Notes under the pieces: model-generated | Database searches by the model: none | The model's input: the letters and a program-made list of their open reading frames with translations, nothing else | What the model was told of the DNA's origin: nothing | Made by a program: the position numbers and the translations under genes | From: Candidatus Cloacimonetes bacterium HGW-Cloacimonetes-1 | Lineage (GTDB): Bacteria > Cloacimonadota > Cloacimonadia > Cloacimonadales > Cloacimonadaceae | Direction of reading: 5' to 3' | NCBI GenBank assembly: GCA_002841975.1 | Contig: PHBQ01000005.1 | Span: 1-55,121, forward strand | DNA length: 55,121 bases | Shown here: positions 8,958 through 13,483 of the stretch, piece by piece | How the letters are laid out: each line of letters opens with the position of its first letter | Position numbering within the stretch: position 1 is the first letter of the stretch

Positions 8958-9433
8958 GATACTTTATTTCCTGCTTGTATATTCATTTGCTTCGAAGTGC
9001 CGGATTTTAGTTCGAGCACATATTTAATGGGTTTTTGAGGTATAATAGTTTCTTCACTGAAGGGAGTGGTATTTTCTGCTATCTCGACAATATTCTTGTC
9101 TGCGTCTATAAATATAATATCCAATGGCAGATATGTGTTTTTCATCCAGAAGCCGTGAGTATCGATTTCATCAAATTCAAACAGCATTCCTTGATTGGAC
9201 TCCATACTTTCCCGATACATCAGTCCGATCTGTCTCTTGATGACTGTACTAGCGATCTCAATATCAAACAACCCCAATTCTGTTCCATGGGAATCATGAA
9301 TTGTAAGGCTTCCATCTTTGGTAAATGTGTACTGACTTGCGGGCTGTTCTTGGGTTTCATGGATTTGTTTTGGGCAAGCTGTCAGCGAAATCAAGCACAA
9401 CGTACAACAGAGAACCAGCAAGACTTTATTCAT
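8951..9433 (-). CDS. DUF192 family lipoprotein
   Basis: A 160-residue protein with a lipoprotein signal (lipobox LTAC). The mature part matches DUF192 (PF02643): IASTVIKRQIGLMYRESM, then GMLFEFDE, HGFWMKNTYLPLDIIFID, IVEIAENTTPFSE and KYVLELKSG. These are the family's characteristic conserved blocks (RQ.GLM.R, F.M.NT..PLDI.F). The biochemical function of DUF192 is unknown; the domain is small and beta-rich, often exported. The start codon shares one base with the stop of the M14 carboxypeptidase gene (TAATG) and its end overlaps the deacetylase-like gene by 7 bases, so the three genes look translationally coupled. The family call is strong; the role is open. Confidence 0.88.
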   Translation of the reverse strand: MNKVLLVLCCTLCLISLTACPKQIHETQEQPASQYTFTKDGSLTIHDSHGTELGLFDIEIASTVIKRQIGLMYRESMESNQGMLFEFDEIDTHGFWMKNTYLPLDIIFIDADKNIVEIAENTTPFSEETIIPQKPIKYVLELKSGTSKQMNIQAGNKVSW

Positions 9434-12339
9434 TACTTTACCAGTATCATTTTCTTTGTGATAATCTGTGAAGGTGTAGACAATTTATAGATATAGACAC
9501 CACTATTCTGGATATGTCCTTTATTATCTTCACCGTTCCACGTAACGGAATGATTGCCTTTGAGAACGAGGGCATTCATCAAAGTCCTGATCAATTGTCC
9601 TTTAATATTGTATACGTTTAGAGTCACAGGAGTATTGTTGTCTGGGATAGTAAAGCTGATTGTAGTACTTGGGTTAAATGGATTTGGATAGTTTTGCCGG
9701 AGCGAAAGAGACAATGCAGGAGCGTTTTGGTCTTCAACCGCGGTAACTGCGATAATATCTGAACTGTAGTTTACACCATTCAGATTGATAGTCAAAGTCA
9801 TCATCCCGGACATGGTAGAATAGTCGATATCTACGTAATCAAAACTTGTATTGGATAGCTTTGACCATGCCCATTTGTTTTGCGTAATGTTCTCTGCAGT
9901 AAGTTGTGATTCAGCCTCAGAACCCCATTGAATAGAATTGATAGATAAGCCATTAGCTGCACTTAAACTCATATTTACCCCATAAACTGTTGAAGCTTGT
10001 TCAAAGCTAATCCGGAGATTGTTATTCACATGGGAAAGGACGACTTGGTTTGCAGGTGCAGTAAACTCTATCCCGGATTGAGTGGGGAAGAGGTACTCCG
10101 CTTCACGGATGAACTTACCGATTAGATAGGCATCAATGGCATCTATACTATCATTACCATCAACATCACAAGCTGTTACACGGGCATCAGTCCAGGGAAG
10201 AGGATCAATATTGACGATAGGATCCAATCCTATAGAATAATCCAAAGCATGTTGTACGTCATCGCTGTCAACGATCCAATTTCCATCAATATCACCATAG
10301 ACGACTTGTCCGTTTTGCATACCACTGATCTGCACGTCATCGATATATATACCGTCTGCAGTTACAGCGCTGTCAGTATTGAGTCTGAAGCGGAATCGGA
10401 AAGTGCTGCTACCGGTGAAAGCATTCAATGAAAATGATGAGGTCTGCCACGAGCTTTGTTGTCCGGTAAAACTGCCAAGTACCGTCCATGTAGAACCGTT
10501 TGGAGTTGCTTCGACATAAACAAAGTCATAACCACTTTCAAGATTGTATTTATTGGAAAAACTCAAAACAGGATTTTGTACATTTTGTAAAGAAATGGGA
10601 TTGGCAATACCGATTGAACGGTTCTGATTGTTGCTATAGTTTCCCGAGGGAGAATCCGTTAGTACCGTGTTACCGCTTTGGACCGTAGTAGCCCAGGGTG
10701 TTTGTATTGACCAATTGCTTAAGCCACTCTGAAAGTCTTCATTAAACATTGGCTGAGATAAGACAAAAACCTTGGCATTTGAATCTGCCCTAAATTGAAC
10801 GACTTGCTGATACACGGCAAATCCTGTTTTATTGATTGTGACTGTATAATCTCCTTCATAGAGGGAGTTAATGGCAAATGTACCTGTAGCGGTCGTACTA
10901 AGATTGATAGGAGTTGGGGTGCCTATAGCTACAGATGCCCCGTTAATAAGCTGTCCATTCAGATCACGAACTTGCCCCGAAAAACTCATCGTCTGGGCGG
11001 GTTCCAGAATAAAATTATGGACCACTTGGCCGCTGATTGGAACGGTGACACTTACGCTTTGTGAGACAAACCCTACAGCGCTTGCAGTAATTGAATAAGT
11101 CCCAGGAAGTAAAAGACGATGGTAATCTCCCACCGATGGATCTGTCGTTGTATTTTTGATATTACCGGCAATGGAGATAGTTGCAGCCAGTGGATTGTTG
11201 TTATTATCCCAAACAGTCCCGTTAATACCTTTATGTACAAACTCCATATAAGATAAAAGTGATTCTTTGTTTTGATTCCACAGGGATTCCAGCTGAGAGG
11301 ATGCCGGCCATTTGTTGCTACTTACTTCCGCAGTAATATCCATACAATCGGTAAACCCATAATTCCAATCTTGATAAGATCCCGTTGTCACATACCAGGC
11401 AGCCCCGTTGGTGATACCATGCACAAATTGTGAACTATTATACATTGTACTATAATGAGAGGCATAGCTTAAGGCTGCTTGCTGCAAATATGCATCATCG
11501 GGAGCAAGAGTGTAAGTATAGTCCCATGGATAATTCATCACTACTTCTCCACCATGAAAATTGGCAGATAACAAGAAACTATGCGCAGATATGAAATCCA
11601 TCATTGCAATGGTTTCAGGAGCCCAGCTTTCTCCATCCGGATGTTGAGATCCAGTAGGCATGGGGAAGTTGCGATTCAAGTCTATCCCTGCTGCATTATA
11701 GCGCGAATGAGCGACATATCCATCAGGATTCATAAGGGGATTTATCCAGATTTCTGTGCTATTAACAAGATTGGTGATCCTAGTATCGACACCATATTGT
11801 GAGGTTAAAAGCTGGATCAAGCGCAGTAACAGATCAAAGCCTAACACTTCGTCACCATGCATGGAACTGATATATTTGAATTCTGGTTCATTCTCGGAAA
11901 TAGTGACATTATCTGAAATCTTCATAAAATACAAAGGGCGATTTTGGGTACTGGAGCCGATCTGAACCAATTGGCATATCCCCGGGTACTGGGCGGCTGT
12001 ATCTTGCATAAATTGGCTATATTGATCGATAGAATAATAATCCCGCATAGGGTTGTCCGAGTCTTTGGTCTCTTCCCACAATTTATCTGCATATTCTTTT
12101 GCCACGTCCGGCAAAGCTACTGCATCAAAGCCGTGTGAACTCAATTTTTGAAACTCCATATCGTCACGTACGTATACTATGATAGTATTCGAGTTTCGAT
12201 TTACGTTGTCTATGCTAAAATTCAATTCATTCAAACGTTTTAAGTCTTCATTGATGCGCCAGCTGTTTATTTTTACGGGATATGCCATTACTGAACTTAC
12301 AATCAGCAATAATGCCATTACTATGAGAGCTCTTTTCAT
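9433..12339 (-). CDS. Secreted M14 zinc carboxypeptidase with dockerin-like and FlgD-like C-terminal sorting domains
   Basis: A 968-residue exported peptidase with a hydrophobic signal peptide ending near VMAYPV. The M14 domain (about 95-375) shows the zinc site HGDE (His161, Glu164), a third ligand candidate in NFHGG (His262), a GIDLNRNFP substrate-binding segment and catalytic Glu338 in ITAEVSS. Two carboxypeptidase-regulatory-like beta domains follow (GTVWDNNNNPLAAT and SGQVRDLNGQLI), then a MAM/jelly-roll-like segment with GIYIDDVQIS. A dockerin-like pair DIDGNWIVDSDD and DVDGNDSIDAID lies near 675-740, and the end is YPNPFNPSTT plus a FlgD-like Ig fold ending IITKKMILVK. It probably digests peptides at the cell surface or outside. 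The ATG at 12339 has an AAGGAAAG ribosome site. Confidence 0.93.
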   Translation of the reverse strand: MKRALIVMALLLIVSSVMAYPVKINSWRINEDLKRLNELNFSIDNVNRNSNTIIVYVRDDMEFQKLSSHGFDAVALPDVAKEYADKLWEETKDSDNPMRDYYSIDQYSQFMQDTAAQYPGICQLVQIGSSTQNRPLYFMKISDNVTISENEPEFKYISSMHGDEVLGFDLLLRLIQLLTSQYGVDTRITNLVNSTEIWINPLMNPDGYVAHSRYNAAGIDLNRNFPMPTGSQHPDGESWAPETIAMMDFISAHSFLLSANFHGGEVVMNYPWDYTYTLAPDDAYLQQAALSYASHYSTMYNSSQFVHGITNGAAWYVTTGSYQDWNYGFTDCMDITAEVSSNKWPASSQLESLWNQNKESLLSYMEFVHKGINGTVWDNNNNPLAATISIAGNIKNTTTDPSVGDYHRLLLPGTYSITASAVGFVSQSVSVTVPISGQVVHNFILEPAQTMSFSGQVRDLNGQLINGASVAIGTPTPINLSTTATGTFAINSLYEGDYTVTINKTGFAVYQQVVQFRADSNAKVFVLSQPMFNEDFQSGLSNWSIQTPWATTVQSGNTVLTDSPSGNYSNNQNRSIGIANPISLQNVQNPVLSFSNKYNLESGYDFVYVEATPNGSTWTVLGSFTGQQSSWQTSSFSLNAFTGSSTFRFRFRLNTDSAVTADGIYIDDVQISGMQNGQVVYGDIDGNWIVDSDDVQHALDYSIGLDPIVNIDPLPWTDARVTACDVDGNDSIDAIDAYLIGKFIREAEYLFPTQSGIEFTAPANQVVLSHVNNNLRISFEQASTVYGVNMSLSAANGLSINSIQWGSEAESQLTAENITQNKWAWSKLSNTSFDYVDIDYSTMSGMMTLTINLNGVNYSSDIIAVTAVEDQNAPALSLSLRQNYPNPFNPSTTISFTIPDNNTPVTLNVYNIKGQLIRTLMNALVLKGNHSVTWNGEDNKGHIQNSGVYIYKLSTPSQIITKKMILVK

Positions 12340-12414
12340 GCTAAACTACTTTCCTTTGTGTCTTGAGTATTTTGCCCATTCACATTGCACATTTTGCGCC
12401 GTAGACAAAAAAAA

Positions 12415-12510
12415 TGCCAGGCGAACAGCAACACACGACTAACAATGCTTAATGCTGCTTCATTCCTGATCTGACATGATTCACACGTAGCCATTGTGCT
12501 GTACCTGGCA
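12415..12510 (-). ncRNA. ffs: Small signal recognition particle RNA (4.5S-type)
   Basis: Read on the minus strand, the 22-base segment 12475-12454 matches the domain IV core of bacterial SRP RNA, with GTCAG, a GGAA tetraloop and GAAGCAGC at the expected spacing. Compared with the E. coli core (recalled from memory) only three bases differ, and two of these convert the tetraloop-closing C-G pair to A-U, a compensatory change. The ends pair: 5' TGCCAGG.ACAGCA with 3' TGCTGT..CCTGGCA, giving a closed rod of about 96 bases without an Alu domain, followed by eight U's (12414-12407) that can terminate transcription. The RNA binds Ffh and targets proteins to the membrane. A 60-codon frame across it (12518-12336) is not credible. 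Confidence 0.93.
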
Positions 12511-12515
12511 ATAGC

Positions 12516-12544
12516 CATAAAATTGCTTTACCCTATTCTGTCAA
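12516..12544 (-). promoter_or_regulatory. Promoter for the SRP RNA
   Basis: On the minus strand a perfect TTGACA (12544-12539), overlapping the EamA gene's stop codon, lies 17 bases from TTTATG (12521-12516). That places the start near 12509-12510, exactly where the SRP RNA closing stem begins. The -10 is weak but the position agrees well. Confidence 0.5.
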
Positions 12545-13443
12545 GTTCTGCTTTTCGTCCATAGCTTCTGAAAGGTGTTACTCAGAATTATCAGTACCAG
12601 ACCGATTAGAGTGGCAGGATGAATCCGTTCCAAGAGTATGTATTTGATAAATATCAATGAAATAAAGGGAGTAATAAAGATAAGATTGGCAATTTTAGAC
12701 GTTTCATCTGTGCTAGCCAAGGCTTTGTTCCACAGCAGGAAAGTAAGTCCCATTTCAAAGATACCTATGTAAACTCCGCCCAAGATCCCATATAGATGAT
12801 TTGTATGATTCGCCTTGAATACGATGGGTGTGTGCAATATCAGATACTTTATAGTGACAAACACGACTATCGCCATACTGCCAACTACGAAATTGAAAAA
12901 TAGCTTTTGCGTTGCCGGACGTCGGTCTTGATGATTGATCAGCCAATATGATGCCCATACCAAAGATGACGATATAGCTAAGATAGATCCAGATAAACTA
13001 TCAAATTGCAGACTTCCAAAATCTCCATGGGTACTGATCACGACTACACCGCAAAAGCTGATAAAGAGGGCAGCCATATCGCTCCATCTAAAACGCTGTT
13101 TATAATAAGCGATCATAAACAACGATAAAACAATAGCCCATGTATAGTTCAAGACTTGAGCTTCCTGGGCTTTGATTCTGTTATAAGCCTCAAAGAGCAT
13201 AAAGTAATAAAGTGCGGGATTCAGCAATCCGGGGATCAGGGAACGCTTGAGCTGGGAAGCAACAGATATCTTCTCACCTGATTTGTTGAAAAGCAATACT
13301 ATGAATAAAAAGAGCATCGCAGAGAGGGAAGATATACTCATGAGTCCGAGCGGAGTCAAATAACCCAGACTCAGCTTGAAAGCCGTGGATACAGTTGACC
13401 AGCATAAAATGGCTAAAGCAGCATAAAGATAAGATTTATTCAT
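12541..13443 (-). CDS. EamA/DMT-family permease
   Basis: A 300-residue integral membrane protein of the drug/metabolite transporter superfamily, with about ten hydrophobic helices in two EamA repeats. Family-typical pieces include an N-terminal ILCWSTVSTAFKLSLGYLTPL helix region, LNPALYYFMLFEAYNRIKAQEAQVLNYTW at the end of the first repeat, ISFCGVVVIS, and the second-repeat FEMGLTFLLWNKALA. It probably exports a small metabolite; the substrate cannot be told. ATG 13443 gives the usual EamA start; a GTG at 13461 would lie inside a hairpin. No clear ribosome site exists because an intrinsic-terminator-like hairpin ends 3 bases before the ATG, which is odd. Confidence 0.87.
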   Translation of the reverse strand: MNKSYLYAALAILCWSTVSTAFKLSLGYLTPLGLMSISSLSAMLFLFIVLLFNKSGEKISVASQLKRSLIPGLLNPALYYFMLFEAYNRIKAQEAQVLNYTWAIVLSLFMIAYYKQRFRWSDMAALFISFCGVVVISTHGDFGSLQFDSLSGSILAISSSLVWASYWLINHQDRRPATQKLFFNFVVGSMAIVVFVTIKYLILHTPIVFKANHTNHLYGILGGVYIGIFEMGLTFLLWNKALASTDETSKIANLIFITPFISLIFIKYILLERIHPATLIGLVLIILSNTFQKLWTKSRT

Positions 13444-13446
13444 AAT

Positions 13447-13483
13447 AAAAAAGCCTGTCACAGCAAATAAAGCGGACAGGCTT
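13447..13483 (-). terminator. Intrinsic terminator after the TPR lipoprotein gene, abutting the EamA start
   Basis: Minus-strand arms AAGCCTGTC (13483-13475) and GACAGGCTT (13459-13451) form a perfect 9-bp stem with a 15-base loop and a T-run to 13447. It lies 17 bases after the TPR gene stop and 3 bases before EamA ATG 13443, so it could also act as an attenuator or hide the start. Confidence 0.8.

Follow-up and report, generated by a model that had tools for sequence, protein, structure and literature searches.

The window analysed here, the whole stretch of 55,121 nucleotides, carries on its minus strand (12510–12412) what we regard as practically certain to be the genome's single, ordinary SRP RNA gene, of the small kind that lacks an Alu domain. 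The gene itself is of a known kind, and its interest lies in the split between small and large SRP RNAs that occurs within its order, where an RNA domain (Alu) has apparently been lost inside one bacterial group.

The SRP RNA gene

The Rfam model of the small bacterial SRP RNA (RF00169) matched the minus strand at 12510–12412 with 71 bits (E value 7.3e-14; gathering threshold 40). The match runs from end to end, covering positions 1–97 of the 97 in the model over about 99 nt, and it was the only Rfam match in the window that reached its cut-off. An earlier note on this DNA had read an SRP RNA gene on this strand from a domain IV core, a closed outer stem and a run of eight T's, and had proposed the RF00169 search as a check. 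Our results agree with that reading: the core is GTCAGATCAGGAATGAAGCAGC, the outer stem is closed, the T's stand at 12414–12407, and the alignment to RF00169 contains domain IV (GUCAG ... GGAA ... AGCAGC) with paired stems. The positions of the gene and of the features around it are shown in Table 1.

Folded alone, the RNA takes the shape of one long hairpin (−35.6 kcal/mol), whose strength against shuffled sequences is a weak signal (z −1.57; 12 of 200 shuffles fold as well). The case for an SRP RNA rests on the covariance-model score and on covariation. The transcript would begin at 12510 and end in the T run, at which a consensus terminator scan made no call (12407–12414).

The genome also encodes Ffh (G000:C57; TIGR00959, 577.3 bits, above cut-off). 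Judging from its sequence, the RNA would bind Ffh through domain IV, and together with Ffh and FtsY it would deliver membrane proteins and secreted proteins co-translationally to the translocon. The gene is expected to be essential.

Table 1. Features in and around the SRP RNA gene (positions in the window)
Feature	Position	Strand	Basis
Small SRP RNA (4.5S-type) gene; RNA probably from 12510 to ~12407	12412..12510	−	RF00169, only copy, covariation
Eight-T run after the outer stem, intrinsic terminator formed with the RNA's own outer stem	12407..12414	−	Sequence, scripted poly-T search
TTGACA, −35/−33 box of the SRP RNA promoter	12539..12544	−	Sequence; in 42 of 43 f1 SRP loci
TGG, conserved T[T/G]G box, Bacteroidota-type −7 box	12515..12517	−	Spacing counts (SRP, tmRNA), start-anchored base counts
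EamA-family permease, ends at the SRP promoter	12541..13461	−	PF00892, E 6.2e-31
Neighbouring gene outside the SRP system: secreted M14 zinc carboxypeptidase (968 aa)	9433..12339	−	PF00246, E 1.6e-65
GG-N10-GC, sigma-54-like −24/−12 element of the peptidase gene	12387..12400	−	Conserved in f1 loci; RpoN in the genome
Open frame of 60 codons across the SRP RNA, called mechanically and regarded as spurious	12336..12518	−	ORF list, no Pfam match

Small and large SRP RNAs in Cloacimonadota

Rfam scans of the loci of 37 relatives gave the Alu-bearing model, RF01854, as the better one in 10 and RF00169 in 27. When 124 genomes of the phylum were scanned with RF01854, a match was found in 103, of which 51 were large and 52 small. 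The large RNAs scored 107–205 bits, with the best match extending over the whole model, whereas the small ones scored 48–75 bits and mostly matched in the core only; G024 and G002 are of the small class, with matches reported over the whole model yet at 68.7 and 56.9 bits. Two genomes had two large-SRP matches each, G090 on contigs C67 and C19 and G085 on C230 and C207, by duplication or through a mixed assembly.

Among the 103 matching genomes no family contained both forms, the form being uniform within each. The large RNA was found in f3, f4, f6, f7, f9 and f11 and in the outgroup families f12 and f13; the small one occurred in f1 (43 genomes), f2 (3), f5 (1), f8 (1) and f10 (4).

In each of the 23 large-RNA loci read from this order, hisS follows the RNA directly; the same holds for 0 of 7 loci from f12 and f13. 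HisS was identified by PRGT-D-I/L, a motif close to the N-terminus that is typical of this protein. The f5 genome (G027) has a small SRP RNA at this very site of the large-RNA families (L026, 1501–1599), and a permissive Rfam scan of L026 1350–1850 revealed no Alu remnant beside it. In f1, f2, f8 and f10 the SRP RNA has no hisS neighbour.

Probable number of Alu losses

A tree was built from RpoB and Ffh of 29 genomes; 30 had been searched, and G035 was omitted as fragmentary. Some rows were incomplete: G106 and G012 had no Ffh, RpoB was partial in G000, G012 and G106, Ffh was partial in G001, and RpoB of G037 entered as one piece of a frame that contains a stop. Families f1, f2 and f10 grouped together with a bootstrap of 86 (79 in a second run). 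Families f5 and f8 fell outside this group and close to f4 and f11. The support for this is weak, the nodes that separate f5 and f8 from f1, f2 and f10 having values of 31, 45, 45 and 78. Forcing all 16 small-RNA rows into one clade cost 37.5 log units, and the AU test gave a marginal p of 0.0265. The fewest changes between small and large on this tree was three, a number that does not tell loss from gain.

Since the large RNA with its Alu part occurs in relatives and in the two outgroup families, the small form has apparently arisen within the order, through at least one loss of the Alu part and, more probably, two or more. Given the tree and the small RNA at the hisS site of f5, the simplest reading is two or more losses, one of them in place. 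The history that we consider probable starts from an Alu-bearing ancestor in the order; two or more losses of the Alu part followed, one in place next to hisS (f5) and the other or others with relocation of the gene (f1, f2 and f10; f8), and the f1 gene came to stand before a secreted peptidase driven by sigma-54.

A single loss, which would mean that the tree has f5 and f8 in the wrong place, is rather unlikely in our judgement. It gains from the values of only 31–45 at nodes around these two families and from a minimum of three changes in which losses and gains look alike, but the AU test rejects one clade of the 16 small-RNA rows at the p value above, and the hisS neighbour is kept in f5 and not in f1, f2, f8 or f10.

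If repeated loss is true, it is a natural experiment, set within one order, on the role of the bacterial Alu domain, and matched pairs (f5 against f4 or f11) could be used to ask what else changes once the domain is gone. An Alu-bearing SRP RNA is unusual for bacteria outside the Gram-positives. Here both forms are found inside one order, in a phylum that lies outside both model groups, the Gram-positives and the Gram-negatives. The division between the Alu-bearing RNA typical of Gram-positive bacteria and the Alu-less RNA typical of Gram-negative bacteria is treated as a puzzle in one paper (PMC4359368). In the open-licence literature, subscription reviews of SRP RNA distribution being outside this scope, no paper brought 'Cloacimonadota' and 'SRP RNA' together, and none of its titles on Alu-domain distribution or Bacteria_large_SRP named Cloacimonadota; novelty of the Alu pattern in this phylum is not established.

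Proposed promoter of the SRP RNA gene

The TTGACA (12544–12539) overlaps the end of the upstream gene, its TGA (12543–12541) being at once the stop codon of the EamA permease. The earlier note had paired this box with a −10 element 17 bases away. The TTGACA stood, and the −10 did not. The hexamer at 17 bases is TTTATG, which agrees with TATAAT at three of six positions, and a scan with the sigma-70 consensus found no site at the SRP RNA gene. At spacings of 12–26 bases, TATAAT was found in none of the 43 f1 SRP loci, 8 other small-SRP loci and 25 tmRNA loci. A sigma-70 −10 at 17 bases is ruled out by the scan and by this absence across SRP and tmRNA loci.

What does occur is a TGG (12517–12515), 21 bases after TTGACA and ending 5 bases before 12510. 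In the 43 f1 SRP loci, TTG follows TTGAC[A/T] after 20 bases in 11 and after 21 bases in 16. The tmRNA set comprised 28 full-length loci; 25 were used, in which GGGGGTG could be recognised where the RNA should start, and 3 were dropped. TTG stands 20 bases after TTGAC[A/T] in 11 of these 25, with L288 among the loci examined. Any other spacing of TTG from TTGAC[A/T] was seen in at most five loci.

Flavobacterial sigma-A recognises a box TAnnTTTG at −12 to −5, according to PMC9723704. Start-anchored base counts show that the T[T/G]G part of such a box is present at the SRP start, ending at −5, and that the TA part is weak. Transcription from the first base of the stem (12510), as was proposed before, still fits, since the last base of the conserved T[T/G]G box is at −5 from it. 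We infer that TTGACA with T[T/G]G is a primary promoter of Bacteroidota type, from which the primary sigma factor would transcribe the SRP RNA. TTGACA-N20-TTG at tmRNA genes likewise suggests a Bacteroidota-like primary promoter in Cloacimonadota, and the promoter grammar common to SRP RNA and tmRNA genes supplies a search rule for the primary promoters of this phylum.

Neighbouring genes and a sigma-54-like element

The frames and the Pfam matches bear out the placing of the SRP RNA gene between the stop codon of an EamA permease and the start of a secreted peptidase. The peptidase begins with an ATG at 12339, and Pfam finds in it, besides the M14 domain, CarboxypepD_reg, MAM-like and FlgD_ig domains, with a C-terminal Por_Secre_tail just below cut-off. 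An M14-like frame accompanied the SRP RNA in 18 of 21 held-out f1 loci, and none was seen in L251, L254 and L269 under a crude scripted rule; except for the protein of the window itself, the f1 neighbours were assigned to M14 by N-terminal likeness and not by a domain search. The closest M14 relative outside f1, in a search of 14 genomes, has 58% identity and belongs to G034 of family f2 (L334, L013). Contig C360 carries both its gene and the SRP RNA, the former about 5.4 kb downstream of the latter, and the SRP RNA/M14 neighbourhood may therefore be older than f1.

Between the SRP RNA terminator and the peptidase gene, GG-N10-GC is found in 33 of the 43 f1 loci. It was present in 18 of the 22 loci of the first set and in 15 of the 21 held out, where one positive (L252) is doubtful, having its only match at +73, off the usual place. 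Other spacings from 5 to 16 gave at most 6 of 21 in the held-out loci, and shuffles gave a mean of 1.85 and a maximum of 6. We take GG-N10-GC to be a sigma-54-like −24/−12 element. An RpoN gene is present in the window's genome (G000:C109; PF04552, E 4e-50) and in 38 of the 40 relatives searched. Among 11 other M14 genes, the element stands about 60–72 bases before the start in three (L335 of f8, L351 and L352 of f9), and that of L337 has two less motif-like matches, at −74 and −58; no match was found before the remaining 7 of the 12 M14 genes, counting the window's own.

On sequence grounds, GG-N10-GC is probably a sigma-54-dependent promoter of the M14 peptidase, unconnected with the function of the SRP RNA, and the peptidase would thus have a promoter of its own between the two genes. 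We find it improbable that the element belongs to the SRP RNA, with a part in processing or anti-termination. Where f1 loci carry it, it does mostly begin 9–23 bases past the end of the model match, but within 90 bases it was found in 0 of 16 SRP loci outside f1, nor in 3 further small ones, and M14 genes that lie away from the SRP RNA in f8 and f9 carry it (3 of 11).

Covariation, copy number and the identity of the stretch

Covariation was examined in the 52 distinct small SRP RNAs of the phylum, with the window's own included. Their consensus fold has 28 pairs, of which 21 show two-sided changes, and standard pairs fill 1400 of the 1432 ungapped cells. The core pattern GTCAG...GG[AG]A...AGCAG fits all 52. 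Below the GGAA loop, 32 of them have an A-U pair, 12 have G-C, 7 have C-G and 1 has U-G; of 10 large SRP RNAs from this order, 9 have C-G at that place and 1 has U-G. The earlier note had proposed that C-G became A-U below this loop with the pair kept. The pair covaries in the relatives (A-U, G-C or C-G), and therefore the compensatory change is real.

A change of the symmetric loop from CAGG to CAGA, absent from that note, is present in 27 of the 52. We rejected this G-to-A change as a special feature, as it is widespread in bacteria: the CAGA form was found in at least 117 stretches from GTDB species, including Pseudomonas, Roseobacters, Enterococcus, Clostridioides and many others. In 80 of these at least 117 stretches, the loop-closing pair was C-G (65), G-C (9), T-G (3) or A-T (3), and the three A-T cases were all labelled Woesearchaeota.

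In the whole genome (2.78 Mb, 99.45% complete), RF00169 had a single match, and exactly one SRP RNA match was present in 38 of the 40 relatives searched; the two without a match are incomplete genomes (74% and 81%). No better SRP RNA was found elsewhere with this one missing from relatives. A decayed or extra copy here, with the working one at another place, is hardly credible: the phylum does show extra matches, G090 and G085 having two to RF01854 each, but here there is only one in a nearly complete genome, and its domain IV residues and closed stems are intact. Equally far-fetched is a 60-residue protein in place of the RNA, for which one could cite that 12518–12336 is open for 60 codons from an ATG, as against its lack of a Pfam match, the full-length covariance-model match and the base pairs that substitutions in relatives preserve. 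The frame exists as the earlier note had foreseen, and as it had supposed we take it to be spurious, its bases covarying as RNA pairs.

Comparison with known systems

The RNA of the window resembles the 4.5S RNA of Gram-negative bacteria, as modelled in RF00169, in its full-length match, its domain IV, its shape of a rod with internal loops, and its lack of an Alu domain. It differs from the RF00169 consensus in the loop-closing pair, A-U where the consensus has C-G, and in the symmetric loop, which has A for G (CAGA), a change common in other bacteria. With the Alu-bearing RNA of Bacillus type (RF01854) it has the S-domain core in common. It fits that model only in the core (positions 112–208 of 256, 63.5 bits), and the Alu half is missing.

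Sigma-A promoters of Bacteroidota have an upstream box TTG/TTTG. The SRP RNA promoter resembles these in having TTGACA followed by a T[T/G]G that ends at −5, and it differs from them in its upstream box, a full TTGACA, and in the TA half of TAnnTTTG, which is weak or absent.
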